Shown here: piece after piece, positions 24,243 through 43,908 of the stretch
How the letters are laid out: the number at the start of each line of letters is the position of its first letter
Numbering within the stretch: the first letter of the stretch is position 1
Origin: Sebaldella termitidis ATCC 33386
GTDB lineage: Bacteria > Fusobacteriota > Fusobacteriia > Fusobacteriales > Leptotrichiaceae
Length of the DNA: 64,000 bases
Reading direction: 5' to 3'
Assembly (NCBI RefSeq): GCF_000024405.1
Contig: NC_013517.1
Coordinates: 434,001-498,000 of the forward strand
Notes under the pieces: generated by a model
What the model saw: only the letters and a program-made list of their open reading frames with translations
Database searches by the model: none
Told to the model about the DNA's origin: nothing
Program-made: the position numbers and the translations under genes

Positions 24243-25430
24243 ATGAAGGATGAGTTTGTACAGGAAGTAATAAGGTATACTTTGGGAGAAGTAAATGAAG
24301 AATTAAACAGAAAGTTTTTTGATTTACGTAATAAGATATTTAATTCTGTGGAATATTCTTATGATGAATATAATATTTACGGGACAGTAATCAGTAAGGA
24401 TGAATTAAAAATATTTGAAAATAATTTTTATCCTGTAATTCCGGAAGATTTAAATGTGGTTGATCTTTTGGAAGAGATAAATTTTTCAAAGGGGAAGATT
24501 TTTGTAGAGAATCTTTTTTTGAAAGAATCCTTGGGTGAGATAAAAGGGCTGGAAAACAGACCTGTCAGTGGTGTGATAAAAACTGACACGGGGGAATATA
24601 AAGCAACATTTCGTTTAGTTTCAGACAAAAGGTATTTTAATAAAATGGAGACATTATTCAGGATAACAGAAAAGAACAAGATAAACTATAAAGTAATAAA
24701 TATACCTTACATTTCAAAATTTATGTCAGTATATCTTACTGACTATGATAAAGATATTTTAAAATCTTCAAAAATAAAAGAGATAATATATAATTTGGAT
24801 GTTCCTGTATTAAGGGGGCATATTTTGTGTTGGAATATAAAAGAAAAGGAATTCGATAGTGAGGAGTATATAAAACCAGCAGAGGAGATACTGACATATG
24901 AGTATAAGGTTAAGATCCCGCTGGACAGGAAATATCTTCTTAATATAGAAAAAGGAGAGCTTATGCTTTCTTATCTTGAGGATCATGAAACTCTTGTTTT
25001 TGTGACGGGCGAAAAGACAGGGCACAGGCTGAAAATCTGGGAGATACTGGATAAAGCAGACAGTGAAACGGAAAAGTATCTTTCATATAAGGTGTACTCA
25101 AATGAAATGCATCTGCAAGACAGCGGGAATATACTCTACTATAAGGAGTCTGTAGCTGAATTTGTTGATAATCTTGGAGTAAAAGATGATATTGTTTTAT
25201 CTGATATAAAATTTGAGCTGGGGGAAAATGAGAGAGAAATGGAACTTTTGAATTTTATGTCTTTTTTGAAGGAAGAGTTTGAGATGAAGAATAAAAGAAG
25301 CAAGGTATATTTGAAATTTGATTTTGTGGATGACTATTTAAAAACAGAGATAATAAGCTATATTATCACAGCTTTGAATTATCAGAATAAGGATTTTGAG
25401 TTTTCAGTACTTGAAGAGGTGGATGAATGA
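24243..25430 (+). CDS. Unknown protein, first of a paralogous pair in the injection-system operon
   Basis: A 395-residue soluble protein, rich in Lys, Glu and Tyr, with no signal or membrane segment. Its centre (PVSGVIKTDTGEYKATFRL ... KINYKVINIPYISKFMSVYL) aligns by eye with the centre of the next protein (SFRGNLKLNGTSYNYEIS ... GIKWRVLYTPYSRRFFNLYI), so the two are diverged paralogues. Paired unequal paralogues suggest a hetero-oligomeric structural part, such as a baseplate-type component, but that is inference. The next gene starts inside its last codons (ATGA overlap), so they are co-translated. I do not recognise the family. Confidence 0.8.
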   Translation: MKDEFVQEVIRYTLGEVNEELNRKFFDLRNKIFNSVEYSYDEYNIYGTVISKDELKIFENNFYPVIPEDLNVVDLLEEINFSKGKIFVENLFLKESLGEIKGLENRPVSGVIKTDTGEYKATFRLVSDKRYFNKMETLFRITEKNKINYKVINIPYISKFMSVYLTDYDKDILKSSKIKEIIYNLDVPVLRGHILCWNIKEKEFDSEEYIKPAEEILTYEYKVKIPLDRKYLLNIEKGELMLSYLEDHETLVFVTGEKTGHRLKIWEILDKADSETEKYLSYKVYSNEMHLQDSGNILYYKESVAEFVDNLGVKDDIVLSDIKFELGENEREMELLNFMSFLKEEFEMKNKRSKVYLKFDFVDDYLKTEIISYIITALNYQNKDFEFSVLEEVDE

Positions 25431-26689
25431 AATACATAAAGTCTAAGATAATAAAGGAAACATTGAAAAAATTAGATTTAGAGGAAGAAAGAAAGTTTTT
25501 GAGAGATTTGACATCAAACGGGATTCAGTATATAGAGAATAATTTTGAGCTCCAGCTTCTTGAAATGGAGAAAAATATAGAAAACAGATATCTTGAGAAG
25601 GAGCAGGATTATACAATCTATTCTATGCCTGTAAACATAGAGATATATAATAAATATTCAGAGATATTCTTTCCATTGGATAAAAAAGATACAGAAAAAA
25701 AAGAAGAAATATTGAAAAGAAGCGGAAACAGGGTATTTTTAAGAAAAATATATTTAGATGAAGATTTAGGTAGAATAGATGAGTTTAAAAAGCAAAGTTT
25801 CAGAGGAAATCTTAAATTAAATGGAACTTCATATAATTATGAAATAAGCGTGGAATATGAAGAAAAGTATCTAAATCAGGAAAAAGAGATATTGAGTGTA
25901 TTTGGTAAGAATGGTATAAAGTGGCGGGTACTTTATACACCATACAGCAGAAGATTTTTTAATCTTTATATCAGCATGCTTCCGGATAATATAGGATTTG
26001 ATAAATTAGGAGAAGTAAAGATTAATTATGGTGAATTTACAGAAAGTGTGCATGAGAACTATTTTTTGGTAAGTAATATTCAGGAGAAAAGTATACTTTT
26101 GGATAAGGCAAGAGGAAAAACTATTGACGGGAATATGTCAAGATATAAGATTTATTCCAATGAGTCTAAAACGGATCTTGTGAAAATTACTGACGGAAAG
26201 ATATATGCCATAGAAAGATTTGAGAATTTTCTGCATATTTATACAGATACTGAGCCTGAAGACGAATGGAAGCTTTGGAATATAAGAAAAATAGACAAAA
26301 TGGAGAAATATTCAGATCTGAAATTTATTCCGAAAGGGAACAGGAAGAAAATAGATGTTCTGGGAGCTTTGAAGGAAAACTCGAAATCAAGGACAAGAAG
26401 TGAAAGCGAAGTGTTTGAGATAATAAAGAGTTATTCTGAGATAAAAGGTGTAAGGCTGGCAAAGGTAAAGCTGAATGAGTATGTCGGTAACCCTGTGCCA
26501 GGTTACGATTCGAACATAGCTTTTAATAAAACTGTGAGTATACCAAGGAAGAAAGAAGATACCTTATTTTTGTATTTCAAATATGAAAAACAGGATAAGT
26601 ATTTTTATGATGAAATAAGCTTTCTGCTCGCCAGTGTGGAGTATAAGTTTCCTGAATATAATGTGAAGGGGGTATTGGAATGGAGATGA
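25427..26689 (+). CDS. Unknown protein, second of the paralogous pair
   Basis: A 420-residue soluble protein related to the preceding one. Shared order: a charged helical N-terminus; a segment of the form FLRKIYLDEDLGRI (compare FVENLFLKESLGEI); a beta-rich core; a C-terminal region with LYFKYEKQDKYFYDEISFLLASVEYKFPEY (compare LKFDFVDDYLKTEIISYIITALNYQNKDF). It overlaps the upstream gene by 4 bases and the downstream one by 10. It is an unknown family, probably part of a complex with its paralogue and with the Hsp70-like protein of the same operon. Confidence 0.8.
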   Translation: MKYIKSKIIKETLKKLDLEEERKFLRDLTSNGIQYIENNFELQLLEMEKNIENRYLEKEQDYTIYSMPVNIEIYNKYSEIFFPLDKKDTEKKEEILKRSGNRVFLRKIYLDEDLGRIDEFKKQSFRGNLKLNGTSYNYEISVEYEEKYLNQEKEILSVFGKNGIKWRVLYTPYSRRFFNLYISMLPDNIGFDKLGEVKINYGEFTESVHENYFLVSNIQEKSILLDKARGKTIDGNMSRYKIYSNESKTDLVKITDGKIYAIERFENFLHIYTDTEPEDEWKLWNIRKIDKMEKYSDLKFIPKGNRKKIDVLGALKENSKSRTRSESEVFEIIKSYSEIKGVRLAKVKLNEYVGNPVPGYDSNIAFNKTVSIPRKKEDTLFLYFKYEKQDKYFYDEISFLLASVEYKFPEYNVKGVLEWR

Positions 26690-27396
26690 AAAAAGAACAG
26701 TATCAGTATATCTGGTATTCGCTTCATAAACTGATAAGTGAGGATAAAGATACTGAAAAGATATATTTCAAAGTATCGCCGAAAATCTCGCCATATATGG
26801 AACTGAATATGGAAGAGATAAATTACGCTGCTTTGGATAAGGAATATATATTGGAGACTAATCCTTTTTACAGATTTACTCATGTGTTTAATGAGTTTAT
26901 GAATCCCGATCTTCCGATTGGCGAAAAGCTGAAGGGGGAGATGGTTAATATACTTCTTCATATGCTTGGAAATCTGGATTTACAGGAAGGACTGAATAAG
27001 AGGATAATTCTGAACAGGATAATAATAAGGGAGCTGGAAGAGGGAAGATACGGAGAAGAGATACAGAAGTGTTTTAGTGTTTTGAACAGAAGGGAAAAGA
27101 TAGCAATAGCTGACGGGATACAGGATAAGTATAGATATGACAGGGAATGGGAGATATTCAAAAAGGTAATGTCAAAGATATATAAGGATTCTATAATTTA
27201 TGATTCTATAGATGAACAGGAGAAAATAATAATTTATATAAATGAGAAGAAGAGTTCCGAGAATAAGAAAAAGGAACTTTTGATAGAGAAGCTTTTTATG
27301 CCTTTAGGACTTAAGAGCAGATGTTTTTGGGGTGCACATTTTCCTGTATTGGGAGTAGATGAAGTGATGAGGATCGGGGAGATGGTTATTTTTTAG
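26680..27396 (+). CDS. Unknown helical protein of the injection-system operon
   Basis: A 238-residue, mostly helical soluble protein with no recognised motif. It has a compact hydrophobic C-terminus (MPLGLKSRCFWGAHFPVLGVDEVMRIGEMVIF). The ATG lies inside the last codons of the preceding gene, and AGGGGG is just upstream. The position between the paralogous pair and the Hsp70-like gene suggests a subunit or adaptor of the same complex; no biochemical role can be given. Confidence 0.75.
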   Translation: MEMKKEQYQYIWYSLHKLISEDKDTEKIYFKVSPKISPYMELNMEEINYAALDKEYILETNPFYRFTHVFNEFMNPDLPIGEKLKGEMVNILLHMLGNLDLQEGLNKRIILNRIIIRELEEGRYGEEIQKCFSVLNRREKIAIADGIQDKYRYDREWEIFKKVMSKIYKDSIIYDSIDEQEKIIIYINEKKSSENKKKELLIEKLFMPLGLKSRCFWGAHFPVLGVDEVMRIGEMVIF

Positions 27397-27424: not shown

Positions 27425-30373
27425 ATGAAAAAACTGTATCATGAGGAAGAATTAAGGGAAAAATCATATTATGACTTATATGAAATTGTAATAGAAGAAA
27501 GGATACTGGATTCATATGCAGCAACACCAACAAGGGAGCAGCTTATAAGTCTGCTTTTGAAATACAGGGGATACAGGCTTGAGAATAAAATCAGGGAATA
27601 TAATGAAAACGGTTTTTTTTATGTCCAGCAGTTTCTGGACAGAAAGCTTGGTAATAAATTACATCCTGAAGGAAGAATAAGAATACCGTATAAAATAATA
27701 ATATATAATGATCTGGATCTGACAAGGGAAGATAACTATAAAATAGTTATTCCGGAATATGTGAACAGCAGTAATGTTTTTCTGGTAAATGCCAATAATT
27801 ATTTATGCGGAATTCTTAGTCTGGAAAAAGATCTGGATTCGATGGATGAGTATTATCTGGTGAGTAAAAAGGAATTTTTGAATTTAGACGGACTAAAAAA
27901 CAGCAAATTTTCTCTGATATTTTTTAAAGAAAGAGATGCTAAGATTCCTTATGAATTCTATAATATGGAGGATATTGGAGAAATGTCGAGATATCCGGGA
28001 AAAATTGATTATTATTGTATAGGGATAGAAAATTTCGAGTACAGGGAGCTGGAAAAAACAACAGCAGTACTGTGTATAGACTTTGGGACGGCGAATACTA
28101 CAGCAGGAGTGTATCTTGACAGAAACTATGTGAGTAAGCTTCCAAGCAATGATATTCTGAATGGAAATATAAAACTAGATGAGATAAATTATGTAAAATT
28201 TCCTGACGGAGAGTGGGATTACAGTATAATCTACCCTACGATTACATATATTGAGAATTGTAAAGATGTGAAAGATATAAAATATCTGTTTGGTCATGAT
28301 GCAAGGAGAAAACTGGAGTCCAATGATTATATAGTAAACGGGACAATATTTTACGGATTAAAAAAATGGGTTTATGAAAATAATAAAAAAGAGAAAATAG
28401 TCGATGAATATGGGAATATGCGTGAGGTAGAGAGGAAAGAAATAATAAAGGCTTATTTGAAATATGTAATATCACGGGCAGAGTATTTATTTAAATGTAA
28501 GTTTACAAAGATACATGCCACAAGTCCTGTGAGACTGAAAGAGCAGTTTTTGAATATGTTGCAGGATATTTTTACTTTAGAAATAAAAAAAACAGGGAGA
28601 AGGGAAATAATAACTAAGATACCTGTACCAAGGAAAGAAATAAAAATAAATCTGGAAAAAAAATCAGATAAAATAGAAAACACAGAGACCAAAAATCTGA
28701 CAAATGAGGAAATTTTAGAAAAGTTTGGCGGTCATGGTGAAAGAGCAGATGAACTGAAAAATGAGCTTTTAATTTCTCAGATTGAAATAGATAATGAGTT
28801 TGCGGAAGAGGAAATTAAAGCTGTAAAAACAGATGAAATAAATGTAATTGAACAAATCATGGAAGATGATGAATATATTACGGAAATCACATATGTTGAT
28901 GAAGTAATCGGAAAAGAAACAGTTATGGAATATGAAGTAATAAGTGAAAATGCTATGGATGAAGCTGTAGCTGTTCTTTATAATACTATAGAATCAGGAC
29001 TGGGAAAGAAAAATTATGAAGAAGGTACAGAATATAAGGCTTTGGTAATAGACTGCGGTGGAGGAACAACAGATCTTGCAGCATGTAGTTTTCAGATAGG
29101 GAGCACTCTTGATGTGGCTTATCATCTAGAAATGAAAACGAGTTTTGAGAATAGTGATGAGAATTTTGGAGGGAATAATCTTACTTATCGGATAATGCAA
29201 TATTTGAAAATAATACTTGCCAATAATTATATAAATAATACAGAAATAAGCATAGAGAATTTAATACCATATGCTAAAGAGAGTATTTACAATTCAATAA
29301 ATGAAATAGGAATAGATAAAATTTTTGAAGTTTTTGAGGAAGAGTATCAAAAAGCTGAAAAAATAATTCCTACTAAATTTTCAAAATTTGAAAATAAACT
29401 AAGTGAAGAGTACAGGAAAATAAAGAGTAATTTTTATCTGCTTTGGGAAGCTGCTGAAAATCTCAAAAGAGAGTTTTTTAAGAAAGATGACACATTAAGG
29501 ACAAGATTTGACAAAGAAAAAAATTATGAAAAAAGGAATGATTTTCATATAACTGCATTACGAACATGGAATTTATATATTAATGAAAATGGAAGACTGG
29601 AGAAAGAAGCGGAATTTCCAAAGAATATTTTTACAATAAGAGAACTGGAAAAAATAATAAGGATTGATATTTATGAAATGCTTAGGAAATTTCTGGACAC
29701 TTATTATGACGGCGGAGAATTACAAGAATATGCACTGATAAAATTAAGCGGACAATCCACAAAAATCGGGATATTTCAGGATGTCTTAAAGGAATTTGTT
29801 CCCGGAAGGCAGATAGAATTCAAGACAAAGGATAATGAGAAGGACGGGTACGAACTGAAACTTGCCTGTCTGAACGGGGCAATAAAGTATCTGGATTACA
29901 GAAGATTCGGACATATGAATGTAACAATAAAGAATGAGATTCCTGTGATACCGTATTCAGTATGGGGGAAAACATATAAGAATGATGATGTAGAGATAAT
30001 AAAAACGTCAAACAGGGCAAATGAAAATCTCGGATATATAGATAAAGTATCTTCTGTCATGGAATTAAAACTGTATCTGAAAAATATGGAAGATGATGTC
30101 ATAAGAGAGATAGTATATAAGAATGACATAGATTTTGTGGATAAAGATGCCAAACCACTAATAGAGGGTCTTAGGATGAAAATAAGCCAGAATGAAACAG
30201 ATAATGTACCTAATGATATAACAAGATTTCTGGTTTATACAGATGAGAACTGCTGGGGGTTTTATATATGTCCGATCAGGAGAAAAGACGACCAGATATG
30301 GATGGGAAGAATAGATTATTATCCATTTGAAGATAAAATAAATGAAATAAGTTTTTTTGATGGCGAGCATTAA
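27425..30373 (+). CDS. Large Hsp70/actin-fold ATPase in a VgrG/PAAR operon
   Basis: A 982-residue protein with the two phosphate-binding loops of the Hsp70/actin superfamily: DFGTANTTAG at about residues 219-228 and DCGGGTTDLA at about 543. A 200-residue extra domain precedes loop 1, and a long acidic insert (about residues 400-510) separates the loops. The C-terminus is unlike the DnaK substrate domain. It may be an assembly chaperone for the spike or its effectors. It somewhat recalls SrfB-type virulence proteins, but I cannot confirm that. GGAGAG precedes the ATG; vgrG follows 35 bases later. Confidence 0.8.
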   Translation: MKKLYHEEELREKSYYDLYEIVIEERILDSYAATPTREQLISLLLKYRGYRLENKIREYNENGFFYVQQFLDRKLGNKLHPEGRIRIPYKIIIYNDLDLTREDNYKIVIPEYVNSSNVFLVNANNYLCGILSLEKDLDSMDEYYLVSKKEFLNLDGLKNSKFSLIFFKERDAKIPYEFYNMEDIGEMSRYPGKIDYYCIGIENFEYRELEKTTAVLCIDFGTANTTAGVYLDRNYVSKLPSNDILNGNIKLDEINYVKFPDGEWDYSIIYPTITYIENCKDVKDIKYLFGHDARRKLESNDYIVNGTIFYGLKKWVYENNKKEKIVDEYGNMREVERKEIIKAYLKYVISRAEYLFKCKFTKIHATSPVRLKEQFLNMLQDIFTLEIKKTGRREIITKIPVPRKEIKINLEKKSDKIENTETKNLTNEEILEKFGGHGERADELKNELLISQIEIDNEFAEEEIKAVKTDEINVIEQIMEDDEYITEITYVDEVIGKETVMEYEVISENAMDEAVAVLYNTIESGLGKKNYEEGTEYKALVIDCGGGTTDLAACSFQIGSTLDVAYHLEMKTSFENSDENFGGNNLTYRIMQYLKIILANNYINNTEISIENLIPYAKESIYNSINEIGIDKIFEVFEEEYQKAEKIIPTKFSKFENKLSEEYRKIKSNFYLLWEAAENLKREFFKKDDTLRTRFDKEKNYEKRNDFHITALRTWNLYINENGRLEKEAEFPKNIFTIRELEKIIRIDIYEMLRKFLDTYYDGGELQEYALIKLSGQSTKIGIFQDVLKEFVPGRQIEFKTKDNEKDGYELKLACLNGAIKYLDYRRFGHMNVTIKNEIPVIPYSVWGKTYKNDDVEIIKTSNRANENLGYIDKVSSVMELKLYLKNMEDDVIREIVYKNDIDFVDKDAKPLIEGLRMKISQNETDNVPNDITRFLVYTDENCWGFYICPIRRKDDQIWMGRIDYYPFEDKINEISFFDGEH

Positions 30374-30407: not shown

Positions 30408-32264
30408 ATGTCAATAAAGAATAAATCCCTTAAAGAATTAATAGAACAGGATAAAAAAGAACAGAGAGAGCTTTATGGAGGGAATAAAAGTTCTTCGGGT
30501 TCATCTGTTAACAAAGATTTGCCGGAAAATCAGCAGGAAATACAGGAGAGACTGAATGCTTTGAGAGGAGACGCATTAAACTCCGGAGACAGAAACTCAG
30601 AGGGGAACAGTGCGGTAAACAATGCTTTTTCTAATGTGTTATCAAAAAGTAATTTTGTAAAGGGGATGGCAGCAGGAGCAGCTGGTTCAGGGCTCGCGAA
30701 TAATATTGTCGCAAATAATAATAGAGATATGACGGATTATGTTCAGTATCAGGTAAAAAATGCCGATATCACAATAAATGATGAAATCCTTGATCTGAAA
30801 GATGTGGATTTCAAGATCAGGAAGATTATGAACAAACATGATGTTCTTGAACTTAATTTTAATTTTTTTACTAAGGACGCAGATAAGTATAAAGGATATG
30901 TCTATACTCTTATGAATACAATCGGGATTGGGCTGAACAGGGTAAAAGAATCAGGGGAAGATGATTTTAAGGCTGTTTTTGACGGGATAATAGAAGAGAT
31001 TGAGGTAATACAGAGTAAGGGAGAACTTTCATCAGGGCGGATACTGGCATATTCGAAATCAATACTTCTAGATAAAGTACTGAAATTCAGAACATTCACA
31101 AATCCGGAGCTTACAGTGGACGGAGTAATAAATGAAATAGCTGCGGAGTATACTGATGTAGTGTTTCATATAGATGACAGCCTTGTGGGAAAACCAATAC
31201 CACATATTTTATTCCAGTTTGGAGAAACAGATTTTGAATTTTTGAACAGAATGCTGAATATAATGAATTACGGACTGACAACACACTTAGGTTCTGTAGT
31301 GTGTGGCCTTCTTGAACTGACAGTATATGATCTTCCAGTAGAAACTGAAATTTATACTACTATAAGACGTGATAAGAATTTATCATATAAGATAAAAGGG
31401 ACTAATCCTTTTAATGTGGTGGAAAAGGTAAATATGATAATGGAAGACGAGGAAGCTGTGAGGGTGGTTTATAGTTCCGATATGTGGATAGAAAATAAGA
31501 CAGTACAGTGTGAAATGGTGCTTGTAGATCTGAATGACAAACAGCTCAGACATGATTTTCCTTTGATAATAAATGAGAAGATGAGCGGTTCTGCAGTGGA
31601 AGCTAAGGTAGTGGAAGTAGGGGGAGAAAATGGAATAGCTACAGTTACACTGGATTTTACAGATGGTCTGGCAAGGCTTACAGACAGGAAATCACAGGCA
31701 TATAAGGATAATTATGCGGGGATATTTAAGTTTCCTTATACTACGATGTATTCGAGCACAAACAGCGGTATGTTTGTGACACCTGAGGCAAATGACGTAG
31801 TTTCTGTGTACTTTCCAAATGGGAATGACAGTCTGGCATATGTGCAGGGTTGTGTAAATAATCCCGGAAATGAGAGGGCAAGTAATCCTAATGTGAGAAA
31901 TTATACTCTTGGCGGGGATGATAATGCAGGAGGAGCACCTTTGTTTAATTTTCAGCTGAGCAGTAACAGTTTTAATGTGAGTACTACTGATCATGTGGGG
32001 CTTTCTTCCAAGAATATGATGAATATTTCTACAAGTGAGCAGCTGGTGGTGAATAGTAATAACAGGACTGTTACAACTAAGGGGAACTCTTTCGAGGAAG
32101 CAGATAGCATGTGTATGATATCTAAAAGTAAAACATCAGTGATATCTAATGACAGTGTGGCGGTAGTTAGTAAAAATAAAGTAACTGTAGGTGGGCAATC
32201 TTCAACAAATGTTGGCGGTGGAAGTTTCACTCATATCACTGGAAAAGCAGCTAAATTAAATTAG
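30408..32264 (+). CDS. VgrG-type spike protein (first copy)
   Basis: A 618-residue protein with the VgrG/gp27-gp5 plan. About 120 N-terminal residues are low-complexity and carry the motif DKKEQRELYGGNKS, shared with the second copy. The gp27-like ring domain (FKIRKIMNKHDVLELNFNFFTKD, GIIEEIEVIQSKGE, LFQFGETDFEFLNRMLNIMNYG) is typical of late-control D proteins. A gp5-type OB fold follows (VTLDFTDGLARLTD ... PEANDVVSVYFPNGNDSLAYVQGCVNNPG). The Ser/Asn/Val-rich end has a beta-helix needle pattern. It should form the trimeric tip that carries the PAAR-like effector encoded two genes downstream. Confidence 0.92.
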   Translation: MSIKNKSLKELIEQDKKEQRELYGGNKSSSGSSVNKDLPENQQEIQERLNALRGDALNSGDRNSEGNSAVNNAFSNVLSKSNFVKGMAAGAAGSGLANNIVANNNRDMTDYVQYQVKNADITINDEILDLKDVDFKIRKIMNKHDVLELNFNFFTKDADKYKGYVYTLMNTIGIGLNRVKESGEDDFKAVFDGIIEEIEVIQSKGELSSGRILAYSKSILLDKVLKFRTFTNPELTVDGVINEIAAEYTDVVFHIDDSLVGKPIPHILFQFGETDFEFLNRMLNIMNYGLTTHLGSVVCGLLELTVYDLPVETEIYTTIRRDKNLSYKIKGTNPFNVVEKVNMIMEDEEAVRVVYSSDMWIENKTVQCEMVLVDLNDKQLRHDFPLIINEKMSGSAVEAKVVEVGGENGIATVTLDFTDGLARLTDRKSQAYKDNYAGIFKFPYTTMYSSTNSGMFVTPEANDVVSVYFPNGNDSLAYVQGCVNNPGNERASNPNVRNYTLGGDDNAGGAPLFNFQLSSNSFNVSTTDHVGLSSKNMMNISTSEQLVVNSNNRTVTTKGNSFEEADSMCMISKSKTSVISNDSVAVVSKNKVTVGGQSSTNVGGGSFTHITGKAAKLN

Positions 32265-32272: not shown

Positions 32273-33079
32273 ATGAAATTTGATTTACTAAAAACTACTG
32301 GGAAAAAAATATATAGAATCAAAAAAATCAGGGAAGTTCAGATGATTGATGAAAAAGCAAAGAAAATAGAAGACTTTGTATTACAGATAGAAAGTGAAAA
32401 AAATGATTCTGATAAGATAATTATAAATTTTGAAATATTAAAGTTGTTACATACTGACAATTATATAATAGAACAAAAATATTATAATTTGATGAGAAAC
32501 AGAAAAGTGTTGTTTAATCTGGAGGGGAAATACATAGATACATTAAATAAGAATAAGATATTAACAGAATGGGATGAATTCAGAGAATTAATGAGTAAGG
32601 ATATAGAAACTCCAAATTTAAAAACTGAAAAGGAATTTAAACTGATGAGAGGGTTTTTGGTGGAAGAAAAGTATATAGTAAATTCATATGATATATTTTC
32701 GATATTTTTTCCAAAGATATATAATAAAGAATTTATTAATGAAATATATTATAATGACAGTATGGAGTATTTTTTCGGAGCTGTTAATATACCTGTTAAA
32801 GTAAAAGTTAATGTTAAAAATGAAAATGAAAATTTTAGAATATCAACAACCCATGACATAGATGATATATATTTTAGAAAATATGAAATAAAAGAAGTAC
32901 TCGAATATAATAAAATAAATGTTGATTATAATAAAAATATTATAATGAGTTTTTTTAGTTATGACTTATTATTTGATAAGGAAAGACATCTCCTAAAAAG
33001 CGGTGAAATAGAGTTAGGCGGAGAAATAAAAGATATCTATAAAAATTATACAAAATTTCAAATAGAGGAGATGGTATAA
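32273..33079 (+). CDS. Putative effector adaptor between VgrG and PAAR-like effector
   Basis: A 268-residue soluble protein of unknown family. In position it matches the gene at 52159-52905: both sit between a vgrG and a PAAR-like effector gene, both are 250-270 residues, and both begin with a short beta strand and helical region. In T6SS loci this place is held by adaptors or chaperones (Tap/DUF4123, Eag/DUF1795 families), but no motif of these was recognised. Its stop shares the A of the next ATG (TAATG), so translation is coupled with the effector. Confidence 0.65.
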   Translation: MKFDLLKTTGKKIYRIKKIREVQMIDEKAKKIEDFVLQIESEKNDSDKIIINFEILKLLHTDNYIIEQKYYNLMRNRKVLFNLEGKYIDTLNKNKILTEWDEFRELMSKDIETPNLKTEKEFKLMRGFLVEEKYIVNSYDIFSIFFPKIYNKEFINEIYYNDSMEYFFGAVNIPVKVKVNVKNENENFRISTTHDIDDIYFRKYEIKEVLEYNKINVDYNKNIIMSFFSYDLLFDKERHLLKSGEIELGGEIKDIYKNYTKFQIEEMV

Positions 33080-34569
33080 TGGATAAAGATATCGTCTATG
33101 AAGACTATCTTTTGGTTTGTGAAGCAGGAGCAGCAATATGTCAATTAAAATGCCATAATAAAATGTCTGTAGATGTAGGCGGGAAGTGCAGTATTCCATT
33201 TGGAATAGCAACTACAGCGGATAATAAAGAAGAGAATATAGGTTCATTAGATGAAGAATATTTTGGAATGTGTTTATATAAAGGGAAATGTGATTTGCAG
33301 GTATTGGGCGAGTGGACAAAGCAGCATGAAAGTTTATATATAGGTTCTTCAAAAGCTCTACTTATAGATTCAAAACTGCCGTGTAATATTTCACTGTCAA
33401 CAAATGTATCAGACATGAGACTGAGTAAATTGAAACAATTTGTGGCTTCTGACAACAATATGACTATGTCAGTAAATGCTACACATGAAGGTGACCCTAG
33501 TGATATTACAGCCTCCGGTGGTCAGCTATCACCTGGTTCGGCAGACATAACAATAACAGGAACTAAATATATATCAATATTTAAGGATTTTGATTCTGCA
33601 ATGGGGATGATGGCAAATTCAAGAGTATTACAAGAAAAAGCAGAAGGAGATTTAATAAATGCAGCAACTATAGGGGCTGTTGGTGGAACTATGATGCTTT
33701 TATTTCCACAGGTGGGAGCGGCGATTGGGAGTTATGCAGCAAAAGATATGGCATTTTCATCAATATTAATAGGTGGAACATTAGATAATTTAAAATCAAG
33801 ATATGATAAATATAAGGATTTGGAAAGAAAAGCGGATACGCCGGAAATGAAAGAGTTCTGGAGCCGTCAGTTTTGGCTGGAGGCAGGAGCAGAATACGGG
33901 CCGATGATGTTGGTTGGAGCATATCAGGCAGGGCCGGCTGTGAAGAGTAAGTTTACAGAATTGAAAGCATATTATTCAAGAGGTTTGTCAGAAGAGGAGA
34001 TGATACTCTATGGTTTAAGAAATAACGGAGCAACAGTAGCGGCAGGTAAAAGTGTGGAAGGCGGGGTTATTGGAGATGACGGGAGGTTTTATACAGCTTT
34101 AGATGATGAGCTTTTATATGGATATAATGAGGCACAAGATGCTTATTCAAGAATTTTAGGAAAAAGAAAATTTTCTGAATTATCGGTTCAGGATCAGAGA
34201 TTATTGGCACGTGAGTTTTCTAAGAGATCACCGGTTAAGATACCGGAAAATGCTAAGATTAAAGTTCAAACAAAACTAGGAGGCTATGAACAGATATCAT
34301 ATAGATGGAGAGATGCAAATTATAAATACGAGATAAGATGGCATACTCGAACTCCAGGTGCACCCGCAGATCAAGGAAATACTTGGGTTGTAATGAGAGA
34401 GACTCCTGGAACCGGAGGAAATACGAAAAGATCTTATCATTATTTATTAGATGATAATACATGGGTGACTGGAAAAGAATGGTATGATGCAATTGATGCT
34501 AGAGGTAGTGGAATGTCAACTTTGAGACAAATAGAAATTTTAAATATGGGACATTGGAGTGATTATTAA
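33079..34569 (+). CDS. PAAR-like (DUF4280-type) effector with Ntox30-like toxin tip
   Basis: A 496-residue modular effector. Residues 1-120 have the cysteine-rich pattern of DUF4280/PAAR-like caps (VCEAGAAICQLKC, GKCSIPFGIATT, LYKGKCDL). Residues 190-310 are a Gly/Ala-rich hydrophobic and helical pre-toxin region. Residues 312-338 are the linker GKSVEGGVIGDDGRFY that recurs in the array. The tip (about 385-496) has ISYRWRDANYKYEIRWHTRTPGAP and ends LNMGHWSDY; it resembles polymorphic toxin type 30, a predicted RNase, from memory of the family. The immunity gene follows with TAATG overlap. Confidence 0.8.
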   Translation: MDKDIVYEDYLLVCEAGAAICQLKCHNKMSVDVGGKCSIPFGIATTADNKEENIGSLDEEYFGMCLYKGKCDLQVLGEWTKQHESLYIGSSKALLIDSKLPCNISLSTNVSDMRLSKLKQFVASDNNMTMSVNATHEGDPSDITASGGQLSPGSADITITGTKYISIFKDFDSAMGMMANSRVLQEKAEGDLINAATIGAVGGTMMLLFPQVGAAIGSYAAKDMAFSSILIGGTLDNLKSRYDKYKDLERKADTPEMKEFWSRQFWLEAGAEYGPMMLVGAYQAGPAVKSKFTELKAYYSRGLSEEEMILYGLRNNGATVAAGKSVEGGVIGDDGRFYTALDDELLYGYNEAQDAYSRILGKRKFSELSVQDQRLLAREFSKRSPVKIPENAKIKVQTKLGGYEQISYRWRDANYKYEIRWHTRTPGAPADQGNTWVVMRETPGTGGNTKRSYHYLLDDNTWVTGKEWYDAIDARGSGMSTLRQIEILNMGHWSDY

Positions 34570-34964
34570 TGATAGAAGTAGATGATGAATATTACAAAGG
34601 TTTTGAAGGAGAAATAGAAATAGATTTTGTATATAGAAGAGATGGGGAAGTAGTAAAAAGAATGGAGATATGGTTTGGTTATTTCTTGAATTTAATAACT
34701 GGGATGGTTCCGGAAAATGAAGAACCAACAGGGATATTGTATGATTTACTTATAGGTGAAGATTGGGAAGAGGAACCATGGAAAATATTAGATATCCAAC
34801 AAACTATCGAACAATTTTGTGGATACAATGAATGTAATTTTAATGTGACTGAAAAACCAAGCAAAGGTATTTTATTAAAACTTCCTAAAGTCTTAGAAAA
34901 AATATTAAATTTTTTAAAAGAGGTTAAAAAAAATGATGGAGAAGTGTATATAGAATATCTTTAA
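34569..34964 (+). CDS. Immunity protein for the Ntox30-like toxin (family member 1)
   Basis: A 131-residue acidic cytoplasmic protein. Five relatives follow in this window, each just after an Ntox30-like tip; all share EIDFIY.., I(W).GYF..LL.GM, EPW.I.D and the C-terminal K.NGEVYIEYL. The gene overlaps the toxin stop by one base (TAATG). Immunity by binding the toxin is inferred from context only; no named family recognised. Confidence 0.8.
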   Translation: MIEVDDEYYKGFEGEIEIDFVYRRDGEVVKRMEIWFGYFLNLITGMVPENEEPTGILYDLLIGEDWEEEPWKILDIQQTIEQFCGYNECNFNVTEKPSKGILLKLPKVLEKILNFLKEVKKNDGEVYIEYL

Positions 34965-35100
34965 TAAAATTATAAAAAATATAAATTATTAATTTATAAA
35001 ATGGGTTAGAGAAAAATCTAATTCATTTAAGTAAGTGAATAATTAAATAGAAGGTTTTTTGTAGGGGGAAGTAATATTTTATAGTTTAAGAAATAACGGA
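34965..35100 (+). repeat. Array A spacer repeat, copy 1
   Basis: About 130 bases of AT-rich spacer that recurs, with changes or shortening, at 36039-36178, 39153-39215, 40162-40300, 41241-41375 and 45990-46085, and partly at 42312-42420. It contains TTAGA..TCTAA and TTCATTTAAGTAAGTGAA hairpins and ends in the first codons of the toxin linker. This copy is nearly identical to the one at 41241. Confidence 0.75.
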
Positions 35101-35640
35101 GCAACAGTAGCGGCAGGTAAAAGTGTGGAAGGCGGGGTTATTGGAGATGACGGGAGGTTTTATACAACTTTAGATGATGAGCTTTTATATGGATATAATA
35201 AGGCACAAGATGCTTATTCAAGAATTTTAGGAAAAAGAAAATTTTCTGAATTATCAGTTCAAGATCAAAGATTATTGGCACGTGAGTTTTCTAAAAGATC
35301 ACCGGTTAAGATACCAGAAAATGCTAAGATTAAAGTTCAAAGTAAACCAGCGGGTTATGAACAAATATCGTATAATTGGAGAGACACGAACTATAAGTAT
35401 GAGATAAGGTGGCATACAAGAACGCCTGGTGCACCAGAGGGACAGGGAAATACTTGGGTTATAAGAAGGACAATACCGGGAACTGGTGGGAATACAAAAC
35501 CTGCCAACCATTATTCATTGGATGATAATACATGGGTGACAGAGGTAGAGTGGAGAAATGCAATAAAAGCAAGAAAATACGGAGTACCAACATTAAGAGA
35601 GAGTGAAATATTAGATAGAGGTCATTGGAGGGATTATTAA
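35069..35640 (+). pseudogene. Orphan Ntox30-like toxin-tip cassette (copy 2)
   Basis: The frame matches the linker and toxin of the full-length effector from SLRNNGATVAAGKS to the end, about 180 residues. There is no PAAR or pre-toxin part, a TAG lies just upstream in frame, and the first possible start is a GTG (35125) inside the linker without a good ribosome site. The toxin frame itself is intact. The variable part after NTWV differs from copy 1. Probably silent unless recombined onto the linker of the effector gene. Confidence 0.75.
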
Positions 35641-36038
35641 TGGAAAAAATAAGAGAGAGTGAATTTTATGAAGGCTTCGAAGAAGAAGAAATAGATCTAA
35701 TATATAAAAAGGATGGAGAGGAAATAAGAAGATTAGAAATTTGGGAAGGATATTTTTCAACACTGCTAAATGAAATGATAACAGAAGAGACAGAAGCTGA
35801 GGGATTATTATATGTATATAGTGTTTATGAAGGTTGGTATGAAGATGAAAATCCTTGGAAAATACCTGATATTACTCAAGCTATAACTCAATTTAAAAAT
35901 TATGAAAAAAAATTAATGATAAATAAAAAAGAAATAGATAAAATTTGGCCAGAGATTCCGAAAATTTTGGAACGAATATTAAAATTTTTAGAAGAGGCTA
36001 GAAAAAATAATGGTGAAGTGTACATAGAGTATCTTTAA
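35640..36038 (+). CDS. Ntox30-type immunity protein (family member 2)
   Basis: A 132-residue relative of the protein at 34569, with divergent N-terminal half (SEFYEGFEEEEIDLIYKKDG) and conserved YFSTLLNEM, ENPWKIPDI and GEVYIEYL. The ATG at 35640 overlaps the toxin stop (TAATG); an upstream TTG is not used. It sits directly after the copy 2 toxin tip, so specific protection is inferred. Confidence 0.78.
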   Translation: MEKIRESEFYEGFEEEEIDLIYKKDGEEIRRLEIWEGYFSTLLNEMITEETEAEGLLYVYSVYEGWYEDENPWKIPDITQAITQFKNYEKKLMINKKEIDKIWPEIPKILERILKFLEEARKNNGEVYIEYL

Positions 36039-36178
36039 TAAAATTAGAGAAAATGTATGAATTATTAATTTATAAAATGGATTAGAGAAAAGTCTAATTC
36101 ATTTAAGTAAGTGAATAATTAAATAGAATATTTTTTGTGGAAAGAAGTAATATTTTATAGTTTAAAAAATAACGGAGT
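36039..36178 (+). repeat. Array A spacer repeat, copy 2
   Basis: Same spacer as at 34965, with a few changes, here leading into an EndoU cassette rather than an Ntox30 one. The spacer therefore belongs to the array, not to one toxin family. Confidence 0.7.
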
Positions 36179-36728
36179 GACAGTAGCGGCAGGTAAAAGT
36201 GTGGAAGGCGGGGTTATTGGAGATGACGGGAAGTTTTATTCAAATAAATTAAGTGATGAATTTAAAAGACTGGAATATAAGACATTTATTTCAGAAAAGA
36301 CTGAGAATAAGATTTTAAGAGGGGAACTTAATTCCAAAAAAATAGTTATAGGAGGGCACTCACCTGAAATTAATGATATGAGCACTAAATATTGGATCAA
36401 GGAAACTATAAAAATAAATCCTGATGGAACTAGAGTTGTTAGATATAAGAAAATTTTTCCAGATGGAACAAGTTCAAAACTAAAAAAATCAATAATTTTT
36501 CCGGAAACTTGGAGTGATACAGATATAATAAATTCAATAAAACAGATAGGAGATACAGAAGCAATAGGGGTAAGGGTGAGAGATCAAACCACTATTCATA
36601 GAGGAACTGTAAATGGAGTGCAAATAGAAGTAATGAAGATTGGGAGCTATACAACAAGTGGATATCCAACAGGAGGTTATCCTATGGATTTAATAAAAAA
36701 TGATTTTATACCAATAATATTTGAATAA
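36135..36728 (+). CDS. Orphan EndoU nuclease toxin cassette
   Basis: A 197-residue frame: array linker (GKSVEGGVIGDDGKFY) followed by a bacterial EndoU-type RNase domain. EndoU signs are VIGGHSPEIN (first catalytic His region), the Lys in KLKKSIIFPETWSDTDIINSI, and SYTTSGYPTGGYP at the end. EndoU toxins cleave RNA, often tRNA. The only start is a TTG at 36135 with weak ribosome site, and no PAAR part is present, so this is a reserve cassette. A truncated immunity gene follows. Confidence 0.8.
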   Translation: MWKEVIFYSLKNNGVTVAAGKSVEGGVIGDDGKFYSNKLSDEFKRLEYKTFISEKTENKILRGELNSKKIVIGGHSPEINDMSTKYWIKETIKINPDGTRVVRYKKIFPDGTSSKLKKSIIFPETWSDTDIINSIKQIGDTEAIGVRVRDQTTIHRGTVNGVQIEVMKIGSYTTSGYPTGGYPMDLIKNDFIPIIFE

Positions 36729-36742
36729 TTAAGGAGGCTTAT

Positions 36743-37039
36743 ATGGCGGTATCATTGTATGAAGAACTTAATTCATATTTGAAAAATTCTGAATACTGGT
36801 ATGAAGAATGCTGGTATGAAGAGGGAAGTGGTAAAGTAAGTGAAATGCTTTCAAAATTTACACAAGAAGATTGGAATAATTTAACAAGAGAAATATTTAA
36901 TAAATCAGTGGATTATCAAGAGAAGATAGCTTATTGTATGAATGATATTGATAATAAAAATGAATTAGAATTTTTAATATACATGACAAAAAATGCTAAA
37001 GATTCTATAGTATTTGAAAATTGTTTAGATTCTCTGTAA
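36743..37039 (+). pseudogene. Truncated EndoU-immunity gene
   Basis: Ninety-eight residues nearly identical to the first 98 of the intact protein at 38694 (SLYEELNSYLKNSEYWYEE...), then cut at about 37035, where a different toxin fragment is joined. AAGGAGG precedes the ATG. It lacks the last third, so function is doubtful. Confidence 0.75.
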
Positions 37040-37406
37040 AAATATTGGAACACAAATAGAAGGGAAAGTGGGAGAATTTGTTCAGGAGAGAGTGGAGATA
37101 GAGAAATTTGGGCAGAAACTAAAGAATGTTAAAACAAATGAAATAGCTGCAGAAATAGATATAGAAACAAAAACTCAAATTATTGAAATTAAAAAATCTG
37201 CAAGTAGTATTGAGTTAGAGCAAATTGAAAAATATATAAATCCTTTGGATAATAATTTCATTAATTATAGTGGGAAAGAAGTAATTATATATATTGATAA
37301 ACCATTAGCGGGGAGCAAAATTCCAAGATATAAAATTAATTTTATAAATAGTAAAGGAATAAAAATAGTAAATTCATTAGAAGAATTATCGGAGGTGTTA
37401 AAATAA
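37038..37406 (+). pseudogene. C-terminal fragment of a PD-(D/E)XK-type nuclease toxin
   Basis: About 122 codons without own start, joined to the broken immunity gene. AAEIDIETKTQIIEIKKS has the D...ExK arrangement of restriction-endonuclease-fold toxins. The end has INSLEELSEVLK. The linker and N-terminus are missing, so it is a relic tip. The ATG of the next gene overlaps its stop (TAATG), the array's rule for toxin and immunity pairs. Confidence 0.6.
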
Positions 37407-37888
37407 TGGGAATAAGTGCATTTGTAATGTTCGAGAGGGGAAAAAGTATATCAATAGAAAGAATGTTGCAAGAATTAAAAGAAGAATGTGAAAAATCTGG
37501 ACTATATTTTAAGTTATCAGAATATGGTTATGAATTAGGTGTAGGTGGAATAAGAATGCATGTAGTTGTGGATGAAATGGCTAATTATGATAGTGATAAT
37601 AAAGATACTGCACTTTATATGGATTTTTATGAAGAACCTAATAAATTTAATTATGTATTTTTAGATGAATATGATGATATCGAATTATTTCAAGCCATTA
37701 TAATTAATAGGTTTAGTGATAGAGAAAAATTATTGTTAAAATTTTTATATATAGTATTAAAAAAATATCCACATGGAATAGCTTGGCCAGAAACAGATTG
37801 GATTTACACTTTAGAAGATTTGGAAAAAATAGTAAAGAAACCTTATGATGAAGATTGGTTTATCAAGAATCCTAAAAAATTAATATAA
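37406..37888 (+). CDS. Probable immunity protein for the REase-type toxin
   Basis: A 160-residue acidic protein (SAFVMFERGKSISIERMLQE.. to WFIKNPKKLI), overlapping the toxin fragment's stop by one base. I do not recognise the family. Position alone makes it an immunity gene; it has outlived an intact partner and could now protect against related toxins of neighbours. Confidence 0.7.
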   Translation: MGISAFVMFERGKSISIERMLQELKEECEKSGLYFKLSEYGYELGVGGIRMHVVVDEMANYDSDNKDTALYMDFYEEPNKFNYVFLDEYDDIELFQAIIINRFSDREKLLLKFLYIVLKKYPHGIAWPETDWIYTLEDLEKIVKKPYDEDWFIKNPKKLI

Positions 37889-37986
37889 ATTTAAAAAAAT
37901 ATACTCTAGTAAAGTTGTAACAGAAAGAGAATGGGTGAAGTATACAGACAAAGTAAAAAATAATTTAGTACAATATTGAAAATCAG
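37889..37986 (+). other. Spacer with toxin-tail relic
   Basis: A short frame (VVTEREWVKYTDKVKNNLVQY, broken by stops before and after) resembles a toxin tail, but no family can be named. Confidence 0.3.
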
Positions 37987-38414
37987 AATATCCTGATATT
38001 GTATTTCATATAGATGACAGCCTTGTGGGAAAGCCAATACCGCACATTTTATTTCAGTTTGGAGAAACAGATTTTGAATTTTTGAACAGAATGCTGAATA
38101 TAATGAATTACGGACTGACAACACACTTAGATTCTGTAGTGTGTGGCCTTTATGTGGATAAAAAATAAGACAGTACAGTGTGAAATGGTACTTGTAGATA
38201 TAAATGACAAACAGCTCAGACATGATTTTCCTTTGATAATAAATGAGAAAATGAGCGGTTTTGCAGTGGAAGCTAAGGTAGTGGAATTAGGCGGAGAAAA
38301 TGAGATAGCTACAGTTACACTGGATTTTACAGATGGTCTGGCAAGGCTTACAGATAGGAAATCACTGGCATATAAAGATAATTATGCTGGGATATTTAAG
38401 TTTTTTTATACTAC
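37987..38414 (+). pseudogene. vgrG fragment with internal deletion
   Basis: The DNA is nearly identical to two parts of the first vgrG gene: about 31158-31310 followed directly by about 31481-31740. The 170 bases between are lost and the frame is broken. It then joins an EndoU fragment. It shows that vgrG itself has recombined into the array. Confidence 0.85.
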
Positions 38415-38680
38415 ATGGAACAAGTTCAAAATTAAAAAAATCAACAATTTTTCCGGAAACTTGGAGTGATACAGATATAATAAATTCAATAAACCAGATA
38501 GGAGATACAGAAGCAATAGGGGTAAGAATGAGAGATCAAACAACTCTTCATAGAGGAACCGTAAATGGAGTACAAATAGAAGTAATGAAGATTGGGAGCT
38601 ATACAACAAGTGGATATCCAACAGGAGGTTATCCTATGGATTTAATAAAAAATGATTTTATACCAATAATATTTGAATAA
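38415..38680 (+). pseudogene. EndoU toxin 3' fragment fused behind the vgrG relic
   Basis: From TGGAACAAGTTCAAA onward the DNA matches the second half of the EndoU cassette at 36135 (KSTIFPETWSDTDIINSI.. to ..TTSGYPTGGYPMDL). The first catalytic His region is missing, so it should be inactive. An intact immunity gene follows. Confidence 0.85.
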
Positions 38681-38693
38681 TAAGGAGGCTTAT

Positions 38694-39152
38694 ATGGCGA
38701 TATCATTGTATGAAGAACTTAATTCATATTTGAAAAATTCAGAATACTGGTATGAAGAATATTGGTATGAAGAGGGGAGTGGTAAAGTAAGTGAAATACT
38801 TTCAAAATTTACACAAGAAGATTGGAATAATTTAATAAAAGAAATATTTAATAAATCAGTGGATTATCAGGAGAAGATAGCTTATTGTATGAATGATATT
38901 GATAATAAAAATGAATTAGAATTTTTAATATACATGACAAAAAATGCTAAAGATTCTATAGTATTTGAAAATTGTCTAGATTCTCTAATAGAATTTGTGA
39001 CACCTGAAACAAAGTTTAGATTTTTAAGTGATGATCAATTGATTATATTAATTACTGGTGGGATAAGAAAAGAAACGATAGAAGGAAATGGAAGAAATAA
39101 GATATATAAAACAATATATGAGCAGTTTTTTGAAAAGTTAAATAATAAATAA
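38694..39152 (+). CDS. EndoU-immunity protein (intact copy)
   Basis: A 152-residue protein rich in Tyr, Trp and Glu at its start (YWYEEYWYEEGSGK) and helical later. It is near-identical to the truncated copy at 36743 and related to the protein at 44498; all three follow EndoU cassettes. AAGGAGG precedes the ATG. Inferred to bind the EndoU toxin in the cytoplasm. Confidence 0.78.
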   Translation: MAISLYEELNSYLKNSEYWYEEYWYEEGSGKVSEILSKFTQEDWNNLIKEIFNKSVDYQEKIAYCMNDIDNKNELEFLIYMTKNAKDSIVFENCLDSLIEFVTPETKFRFLSDDQLIILITGGIRKETIEGNGRNKIYKTIYEQFFEKLNNK

Positions 39153-39215
39153 GGAAAATTATTAAATAGAAGATTTTTGTGGGGAGAAATAATATTTTAT
39201 GGTTAAGAAATAACG
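39153..39215 (+). repeat. Array A spacer repeat, short copy
   Basis: Only the right half of the array spacer is present (ATTAAATAGAAG.TTTTTGTGGGG...), ahead of another Ntox30-like cassette. Confidence 0.6.
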
Positions 39216-39757
39216 GAGCAACAGTAGCGGCAGGTAAAAGTGTGGAAGGCGGGGTTATTGGAGATGGCGGGAGGTTTTATACAGCTTTAGATGATGAGCT
39301 TTTATATGGATATAATGAGGTACAAGATGCTTATTCAAGAATTTTAGGAAAAAGAAAATTTTCTGAATTATCGGTTCAGGATCAGAGATTATTGGCACGT
39401 GAGTTTTCTAAGAGATCATCGGTTAAGATACCAGAAAATGCTAAAATTAAGGTTCAAAGTAAACCAGCGGGTTATGAACAGATAGTGTATAAGTGGAGAG
39501 ATGCTAATTATAAGTATGAGATAAGGTGGCATACAAGAACGCCTGGTGCACCAGAGGGACAGGGAAATACTTGGGTTGTGCTAAGGACAACGCCAGGAAC
39601 TGGCGGTAATACAGTTGCAGTTGATCATTATTTATTGAATGATAATACATGAGTATTAGGTGATGACTGGCAACAAGCGATAAGAGTGAGAAAATACGGT
39701 GTGCCAACATTAAGAGAAATAGAAATTTTAGATATGGGTCATTGGAGTGATAATTAA
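39179..39757 (+). pseudogene. Ntox30-like toxin-tip cassette with a premature stop (copy 3)
   Basis: Linker plus toxin, very like copies 4 and 5. A TGA after LLNDNT (39650-39652) replaces the TGT found in copy 5 and the TGG found in copies 1, 2 and 4. Beyond it the frame is open and ends LDMGHWSDN at 39757. The last 35 residues are therefore not made. The start is a GTG/TTG without a good ribosome site. Confidence 0.78.
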
Positions 39758-40161
39758 TGGATCGAATAAGAGATAGTGAGTTTTATGAAGGTTTTGAGGG
39801 CGAGGGAGAAATAGATTTGATATATAAAAAAGAGGGTAAAGAAATAAAACGATTAGAGATTTGGTATGGATATTTTTCAAAATTATTAAATAAGATGATA
39901 CAAAATGAAATGGAAATTGAGGGTTTATTATATGAACATAGTATACATGCAGGATGGTATGAAGATGAGGAGCCATGGGAAATAATGGATGTAAATCAAG
40001 CAATAACTCAATTTAAAAATTACAAAGAAAAAAAGTTAACAGAAAATAAAAGAGAAATGTCTGAAATTTGGCCAGAGATTCCGAAAGTTTTAGAAAGAAT
40101 ATTAGAATTCTTAGAAGAAGCTAAAGAAAATAATGGTAAAGTGTACATAGAATATCTCTAA
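39757..40161 (+). CDS. Ntox30-type immunity protein (family member 3)
   Basis: A 134-residue relative of the protein at 34569, closest to member 2 at the start (SEFYEGFEGEGEIDLIYKK). Conserved EEPWEIMDV and GKVYIEYL. The ATG overlaps the toxin stop by one base. The immunity frame is intact even though its toxin is broken. Confidence 0.78.
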   Translation: MDRIRDSEFYEGFEGEGEIDLIYKKEGKEIKRLEIWYGYFSKLLNKMIQNEMEIEGLLYEHSIHAGWYEDEEPWEIMDVNQAITQFKNYKEKKLTENKREMSEIWPEIPKVLERILEFLEEAKENNGKVYIEYL

Positions 40162-40300
40162 TAAAATTACAAAAAATATATAGGCGATTAATTTGTAAAA
40201 TGGGTTAGAGCATTCTCTGACCAATTTAAGTAAGAGGATAATTAAATAGAAGATTTTTTGTAAGGATAAGTAATACTTCATAGTTTAAGAAATAACGGAG
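40162..40300 (+). repeat. Array A spacer repeat, copy 4
   Basis: Same layout as at 34965, with more substitutions, leading into the next Ntox30-like cassette. Confidence 0.65.
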
Positions 40301-40839
40301 CGACAGTAGCGGCAAGTAAAAGTGTGAAGGGTGGGGTTAGTGGAGATGACGGGAGGTTTTATACAGCTTTAGATGATGAGCTTTTATATGGATATAATGA
40401 GGCACAAGATGCTTATTCAAGAATTTTAGGAAAAAGAAAATTTTCTGAATTATCGGTTCAGGATCAGAGATTATTGGCACGTGAGTTTTCTAAGAGATCA
40501 CCGGTTAAGATACCAGAAAATGCTAAAATTAAGGTTCAAAGTAAACCAGCGGGTTATGAACAGATAGTGTATAAGTGGAGAGATGCTAATTATAAGTATG
40601 AGATAAGGTGGCATACAAGAACGCCTGGTGCACCAGTAGATCAGGGGAATACTTGGGTTGTGCTAAGGACAACACCAGGAACTGGTGGGACTACAAAAGC
40701 AGTTGATAATTATTTATTAAATGATAGAACATGGGTAACAGGAAAAGAATGGTCTGATGCAATAACAGCTAGAAAATATGGTATGCCAACATTAAGAGAA
40801 ATAGAAATATTAGATAGAGGACATTGGAGGGATTATTAA
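40280..40839 (+). pseudogene. Orphan Ntox30-like toxin-tip cassette (copy 4)
   Basis: The linker has drifted (GKS is SKS, and GGVIGDD is GGVSGDD), but the toxin frame of about 170 residues is open to its end (EILDRGHWRDY). There is no PAAR domain and no good start. Variable residues in the second half (GTTKAVDNYLLNDRTWVTGKEW) distinguish it from the other copies. Confidence 0.72.
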
Positions 40840-41240
40840 TGGTAATAATAAATAATAAATATTATGAAGGATTTGAAGGTGAAATAGAGATAGATTTAAT
40901 TTATAAAAAAAATGGAGTTGAGATAGAGAGATTAGAGATTTGGAATGGTTACTTTTCAGCATTACTAACAGGTATGTTACAATTAGGGACGGAACCTATA
41001 GGGATATTACATGAGTATAATTTAAGAGAAGGGTGGTACGAAGATGAGAATCCATGGAAGATACCAGATATTGCTCAAGCGATAACTCAATTTAGTAATT
41101 ATAGTGAAAGTAATTTTAGTGAGGAGGAAAGGCCGGGGAAGCTTCTCTTGAGCTCTCTTCTGAAAGTATTAGAAAGTATAATACAATTTTTAGAAAAAGC
41201 TAAAAAAAATTGTGGAGAAGTTTATATAGAATATCTTTAA
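40839..41240 (+). CDS. Ntox30-type immunity protein (family member 4)
   Basis: A 133-residue relative of the protein at 34569 (NKYYEGFEGEIEIDLIYKKN.. to CGEVYIEYL). The ATG overlaps the preceding toxin stop (TAATG). Its middle part differs from the other members, as expected if each is matched to its own toxin variant. Confidence 0.78.
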   Translation: MVIINNKYYEGFEGEIEIDLIYKKNGVEIERLEIWNGYFSALLTGMLQLGTEPIGILHEYNLREGWYEDENPWKIPDIAQAITQFSNYSESNFSEEERPGKLLLSSLLKVLESIIQFLEKAKKNCGEVYIEYL

Positions 41241-41375
41241 TAAAATTATAAAAAATATAAATTATTAATTTATAAAATGGGTTAGAGAAAAATCTAATTC
41301 ATTTAAGTAAGTGAATAATTAAATAGAAGGTTTTTTGTAGGGGGAAGTAATATTTTATAGTTTAAGAAATAACGG
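41241..41375 (+). repeat. Array A spacer repeat, copy 5 (nearly identical to copy 1)
   Basis: The spacer and the following linker and first half of the toxin match 34965-35400 almost base for base, about 6.3 kb away. This points to recent gene conversion or duplication. Confidence 0.8.
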
Positions 41376-42311: not shown

Positions 42312-42419
42312 TAAAATTCGAAAAAATGTACAAATTATTAATTTATAAAATAGGTTAGAAAATAGTCTGACTCATTTAAGTAAGTGAAGAATTTTATATA
42401 GATTAAATTAGTCTAAATA

Positions 42420-42690: not shown

Positions 42691-42694
42691 TAAG

Positions 42695-42792
42695 TTCAAT
42701 ATCCAGATTTAAATGGAGCAGAGATATTAATTTTTACTGAAAGAATTCCATGTGCAGGATGTGCTTTAGATATATCGACATTTGATAAAAAT
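42695..42792 (+). pseudogene. Relic of a deaminase-type toxin
   Basis: An open stretch reads YPDLNGAEILIFTERIPCAGCALDISTF (quoted in parts: GAEILIFTERIPCAGC). PCxxC after a strand is the zinc-binding part of cytidine-deaminase-fold toxins. The His/Cys-Glu motif and N-terminus are missing, and a stop follows. Confidence 0.55.
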
Positions 42793-43296: not shown

Positions 43297-43299
43297 TGG

Positions 43300-43885: not shown

Positions 43886-43908
43886 AGATTTTGGAAAGAG
43901 CTGCATAT

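Follow-up and report, generated by a model that had tools for sequence, protein, structure and literature searches.

Why a bacterium should keep two unequal, overlapping copies of one gene side by side is the question raised by a locus in a 64,000-nucleotide stretch of the Sebaldella termitidis ATCC 33386 genome (4,486,650 bases in 3 contigs), covering positions 434,001 to 498,000 of NC_013517.1 and referred to below as the window. A sequence-only reading of the window had noted two co-translated paralogues of 395 and 420 residues at the head of an operon, overlapped by a third protein of equally unfamiliar type, and had suggested that such a pair might form alternate subunits of a ring, possibly in a baseplate wedge. 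The genes are here designated P1, P2 and P3. The analysis indicates with good confidence that P1 and P2 are specialised copies of a TssF/gp6/Tri2-type subunit and P3 a TssG/gp7/Tri1-type subunit, belonging together to the baseplate wedge of a contractile injection machine. The open reading frames were recovered at exactly the coordinates and lengths first reported, including the overlapping third one, which begins at 26680:

24243..25430, + strand: P1, predicted TssF/gp6/Tri2-like wedge subunit, first paralogue, 395 amino acids (aa); assigned by paralogy with P2 and by the family profile
25427..26689, + strand: P2, predicted TssF/gp6/Tri2-like wedge subunit, second paralogue, 420 aa; assigned by AlphaFold2 model, Foldseek and VIA
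26680..27396, + strand: P3, predicted TssG/gp7/Tri1-like wedge subunit, 238 aa; assigned by AlphaFold2 model, Foldseek, VIA and linkage

P1 and P2 are joined by a four-nucleotide ATGA overlap and P3 starts 10 nucleotides inside P2, while AAAGGGAG precedes P1 and AAGGGGG precedes P3, motifs that are consistent with translational coupling. The position at the head of an operon is plausible, with about 650 bp upstream of P1 free of any forward gene, but promoter-like sites there were no commoner than expected by chance. A small protein upstream of the operon (23231-23593) resembles MazF/PemK toxins by eye. Direct comparison of P1 with P2 by BLASTP gave 43.9 bits (E 4e-9), against at most 23.9 bits for 200 shuffled sequences, and alignments holding only P1 or only P2 copies matched each other in hhalign over 363 columns (99.7% probability, E 4.6e-27), so that the refuting outcome named in that reading, no similarity of the two in profile comparison, did not occur. 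The family profile matched at the place of P1 with E 9e-106. On these sequence comparisons, P1 and P2 are full-length paralogues.

Neither P1, P2 nor P3 had a credible match among Pfam, PHROGs, NCBIfam or PDB sequence profiles, and the Pfam TssF profile (PF05947) matched neither P1 nor P2, nor 30 family members, nor any other part of the genome. Remote members of the TssF/gp6/Tri2 fold class often lack a sequence match of the PF05947 type, and its absence therefore lowers the likelihood that these proteins are TssF, rather than the likelihood that they work like TssF.

The assignment was approached through predicted structure. The AlphaFold2 model of P2, built from an alignment of 33 family members (predicted local distance difference test, pLDDT, 81; predicted template-modelling score, pTM, 0.77), was compared by Foldseek with 350,542 PDB chains, among which TssF occupied ranks 1 and 2 (6n38 chains H and I, best E 6e-4) and rank 3 went to a baseplate chain from the contractile injection system of Streptomyces. 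The model of P3, obtained from its own separate alignment (pLDDT 77, pTM 0.58), placed contractile baseplate chains at ranks 1-6, from diffocin, PhiTE, Bas63, A-1(L), phiCD508 and Pam3. Realignment with VIA ranked TssF first for P2 (Z 7.5, 346 residues, root-mean-square deviation (rmsd) 8.7), with T4, AFP, AlgoCIS and phage P1 baseplate entries also in the list, and aligned P3 with 8kea_c (Z 7.8, 108 residues, rmsd 3.7), bearing in mind that a Z below 8 may reflect merely a common arrangement. The order of elements in the P2 model, with an N-terminal helix, a beta-rich middle and an alpha/beta C-terminal trifurcation domain, agrees with the description of TssF (PMC6300606). For P3, whose matched chains are not named by protein, the helical first part and alpha/beta C-terminal domain of the model make Tri1/gp7/TssG the best-fitting role. 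Comparison of the P1/P2 family with the P3 family by hhalign was not significant. Although the single scores are modest, the wedge interpretation is drawn because two adjacent, independently modelled proteins agree within a fitting gene setting, and the best reading makes P1 and P2 wedge subunits of TssF/gp6 (Tri2) type and P3 one of TssG/gp7 (Tri1) type. The earlier guess of a baseplate wedge is thus supported by the fold ranks of P2 and P3 together with VgrG, PAAR-like and Hcp-like neighbours.

Further candidate parts of the machine lie in a core locus without wedge genes (G000:C1:1308495-1326055, or L102:495-18055), which encodes a protein of 720 aa, an Hcp-like tube, a protein of 259 aa, DnaJ, a pair each of FHA and PP2C-phosphatase-family proteins, a kinase, Hsp70, a spike and a DUF4280 protein. 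Short members of the tube family matched Hcp1 in the PDB (E 4.9e-5), and a weak Pfam TssD match was present in 12 of the 26 tube-family members; a relationship of the tube to KEOPS Pcc1 was rejected when a PDB match seen with the first alignment was lost with a broader one, which gave Hcp1. No part of the system is better conserved than the 720-aa protein: between Sebaldella and Firmicutes most members share 49-74% identity, against about 30% in a Lachnospiraceae branch, and its gene sits before the tube gene in most loci. The protein had no credible match in PDB, Pfam or PHROGs, and the TssC sheath profile (PF05943) matched nothing in the genome; position, size, conservation and co-occurrence make the 720-aa protein a candidate sheath. 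The canonical type VI secretion system (T6SS) parts Hcp tube, VgrG and PAAR are all represented (Hcp1/TssD, Phage_GPD/Vgr and DUF4280, respectively), whereas TssJLM and ClpV were not named in Pfam scans of ten core-locus proteins, no genome-wide search having been aimed at them. Two side observations concern the same locus: its FHA, kinase and phosphatase genes resemble the T6SS threonine-phosphorylation pathway, and the N-terminus of the 259-aa protein (L102:3498-4277), which had no database match, recalls by eye the TssK shoulder domain.

Among 98 Fusobacteriota genomes, the P1/P2 family was present in 33, P3 in 31, all of them within those 33 (Fisher p 2e-23), and the sheath candidate in 31 of the 33 (Fisher p 9e-20), these p-values ignoring genome relatedness; three further genomes without the family carried the sheath candidate, two of them as fragments only. 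A scan of bacterial and archaeal genomes for the sheath candidate, using two peptide patterns and not exhaustive, returned 26 loci, all from Fusobacteriota or Firmicutes sensu lato, the latter including Clostridium, Paenibacillus, Lachnospiraceae, Pelosinus and halanaerobial species. The usual order there is sheath candidate, one or two tubes, DnaJ, FHA, FHA, phosphatases, one P1/P2-family gene, P3 and Hsp70, and the spike, PAAR-like tip and Hcp-like tube share loci with the wedge family. In most loci, from Fusobacteriota to Firmicutes, the P1/P2 family adjoins P3, which is as expected of a TssF-TssG pair. Shorter and very divergent family members (344-383 aa; L072-L075) occur in small-genome relatives from the same family, with spike and tube genes alongside.

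Several observations weigh against the wedge assignment. No sequence profile linked P1, P2 or P3 to TssF, TssG or gp6, and the fold support consists of single-chain models of P2 and P3. For P2, the TM-scores are low (0.26) and the rmsd is high because the placement of domains differs, the VIA Z of 7.5 falls inside the range of models without a true match, and an indecisive comparison with viral predicted structures put a siphophage tail protein first, with some baseplate entries lower. TssE/gp25 (PF04965) gave only two sub-threshold matches in a set of 33 genomes, neither of them in a family carrier, though divergent forms may escape this profile. To these is added the full tree, in which P1 copies do not form a single clade of their own.

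As to why there are two copies, most relatives have one family copy adjoining P3, and wherever the family was seen in Firmicutes loci it had a single copy, with the gene broken into two open reading frames at one locus. The tandem pair was found only in two genomes of the genus Sebaldella and three of Leptotrichia type (G000, G001, G019, G030 and G032). A tree of 49 rows placed the Sebaldella and Leptotrichia P2 copies together in one clade (support 96/92), and the pair therefore looks old and retained; the weakly supported branches around the P1 copies leave a single old duplication possible. P1 and P2 are each more diverged from the single-copy members than these are among themselves, while per-domain divergence of P1 relative to P2 is suggestive only. 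The Sebaldella genome carries one sheath candidate, one short and several long tube genes, three intact wedge loci with a further broken copy, and about seven spikes, counts which suggest that wedge and spike modules may be exchanged on a shared sheath.

Known wedges offer a reason for such a pair. In the T6SS wedge TssF2:TssG1, one TssF protomer binds VgrG and the other the sheath (PMC6300606); in diffocin, a single Tri2 protein adopts two conformations, which form a triplex with Tri1 (PMC10996793); and the AlgoCIS wedge is built from two different genes, Alg11 and Alg12 (PMC8894135). Because these wedges hold two distinct positions, the likeliest explanation, by analogy, would be that the two positions are divided between P1 and P2, and the notion of alternate subunits of a ring would fit the two TssF/gp6/Tri2 positions of one wedge. 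P1, P2 and P3 would be translated in order and assemble through N-terminal helix bundle and C-terminal trifurcation domains into a P1:P2:P3 heterotrimer, replacing the usual 2:1 wedge with its two identical subunits. Of the two TssF-like copies, one would be turned towards the VgrG spike and the other towards the sheath, like the T6SS protomers. Arranged six to a ring around the spike, such wedges would initiate the sheath and launch the spike, together with its DUF4280 tip and toxin, at a presumed target.

The likeness to the T6SS TssF-TssG wedge (6n38) extends from the top structural match of P2 and the order of its elements to adjacent genes of matching type and VgrG, Hcp-like and PAAR-like partners. 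P2, however, has 420 aa against 528-532 modelled TssF residues and no sequence-profile link, two paralogues stand in place of one TssF protein used twice, and neither TssF nor TssC is Pfam-detectable in the Sebaldella genome. The diffocin triplex Tri2A-Tri2B-Tri1 (8v3w) provided the first P3 match and is likewise a 2:1 wedge, but in diffocin a single gene supplies both conformers, Tri2A and Tri2B, where two genes are proposed here, and a bacteriocin spike takes the place of a VgrG/PAAR-like tip with toxin. AFP/AlgoCIS Alg11-Alg12 (7aeb) also forms its wedge ring from two genes, one with a gp6-like part; in Alg12, however, a gp7-like and a gp6-like part make up one fused protein, whereas P3 is separate, and P1 and P2 are recognisable paralogues.

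An alternative in which P1 and P2 both serve in wedges without pairing with each other, each forming a homodimer with P3 in alternative wedges for different spikes, is doubtful. In its favour, Sebaldella has elsewhere a P2-like copy and a single-copy type without P1 (G000:C1:396963 and 1761918), another genome (G028) carries two separate single-copy wedge loci, and in Sebaldella one sheath candidate is set against about seven spikes. Against the two copies working apart, the tandem is kept in both genera, Sebaldella and Leptotrichia, accompanied by a single P3 wherever the neighbourhood could be seen, P1 and P2 overlap at ATGA, and in the five pairs no P1 occurs without a neighbouring P2. Separately, a degenerate P2-like gene with several stops lies about 8 kb past the window (G000:C1:506261-507007), and the third wedge locus encodes a 1504-aa protein with DUF4280 and Amidase_3 (L018:1945-6459), possibly a cell-wall-degrading tip.

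It is improbable that P1, P2 and P3 are accessory or adaptor proteins loading spikes and effectors. Their genes lie directly upstream of spike and toxin genes, and the Sebaldella sheath locus lacks them, but the fold searches of two independent proteins point to wedge proteins, the Firmicutes copies sit in the sheath/tube operon, and co-occurrence with the sheath candidate is near-complete. A remnant of a contractile prophage or tailocin is very improbable and was rejected, even though phages share these fold classes. A tblastn search of 50,697 phage records with one family member returned nothing, and the loci examined showed no recognisable genes for a phage head or for DNA packaging. Nor do FHA, kinase, phosphatase and Hsp70 genes belong to phage tails, and gene order is kept across two phyla.

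The wedge genes are followed in the window by the other features of the operon and by a second spike operon:

27425..30373, + strand: Hsp70-like protein, 982 aa, conserved machine family; weak match to the NCBIfam chaperone PRK11678 (E 0.0043)
30408..32264, + strand: VgrG/gpD-like spike, 618 aa; Pfam Phage_GPD 1.2e-7 (above cut-off), NCBIfam vgr_GE 3e-4 (below)
32273..33079, + strand: 268-aa protein between spike and tip, listed by position; no family match in library scans
33079..34569, + strand: DUF4280 PAAR-like tip with C-terminal extension, 496 aa; Pfam DUF4280 7.4e-6 (above cut-off)
34569..46278, + strand: orphan toxin-tip fragments alternating with small presumed immunity genes; repeated GGVIGDDGRFY segments
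47799..48614, + strand: long Hcp-like tube paralogue, 271 aa; tube-profile match at G000:C1:482033-482611
50118..52151, + strand: second VgrG/gpD-like spike of the window, 677 aa; spike profile E 8.7e-190

Homologues of the Hsp70-like protein, mostly of 860-926 aa, are present in many core loci. From its position, the 268-aa protein is a possible loading factor, and the C-terminal extension of the tip is likely an effector. The toxin-tip array contains an EndoU nuclease (36135-36728, Pfam E 4.6e-23) and, at 37.9-38.5 kb, a truncated spike fragment. The second spike operon (47799-57450) combines the tube paralogue, which has a Gly/Ser-rich insert, with a membrane protein, the 677-aa spike, a 701-aa PAAR-like protein and later toxin pieces.

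That Gram-positive bacteria may have an unknown phage-like system has been suggested from DUF4280 and Phage_GPD genes (PMC8651086, PMC5349215). Spike and tip types are the same as here, and those papers report no machine genes nearby, whereas wedge, tube and sheath-candidate genes are proposed here; the machine agrees with the "unknown phage-like translocation system" that PMC8651086 postulated. Searches of an open-access library found no paper describing it, subscription papers and preprints lying outside this coverage. Most likely, it is an undescribed injector type common to Fusobacteria and Firmicutes, with P1, P2 and P3 as a three-part baseplate wedge. We lean, with reserve, towards a broader proposal, namely that a distinct contractile injection system lineage in Fusobacteriota and Firmicutes, which would have a sheath of its own along with FHA/kinase/phosphatase and Hsp70/DnaJ modules, is the missing DUF4280/Phage_GPD machine, and that one Sebaldella sheath locus serves several interchangeable wedge/spike modules, one of them with the TssF positions split between two genes. 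Candidate wedge, tube and sheath genes, together with an operon order, are thereby offered for the spikes of Gram-positive bacteria that lack a known machine. Why one wedge protein needs two different positions is hard to test where a single gene product fills both, and for this question the tandem pair is a natural experiment.
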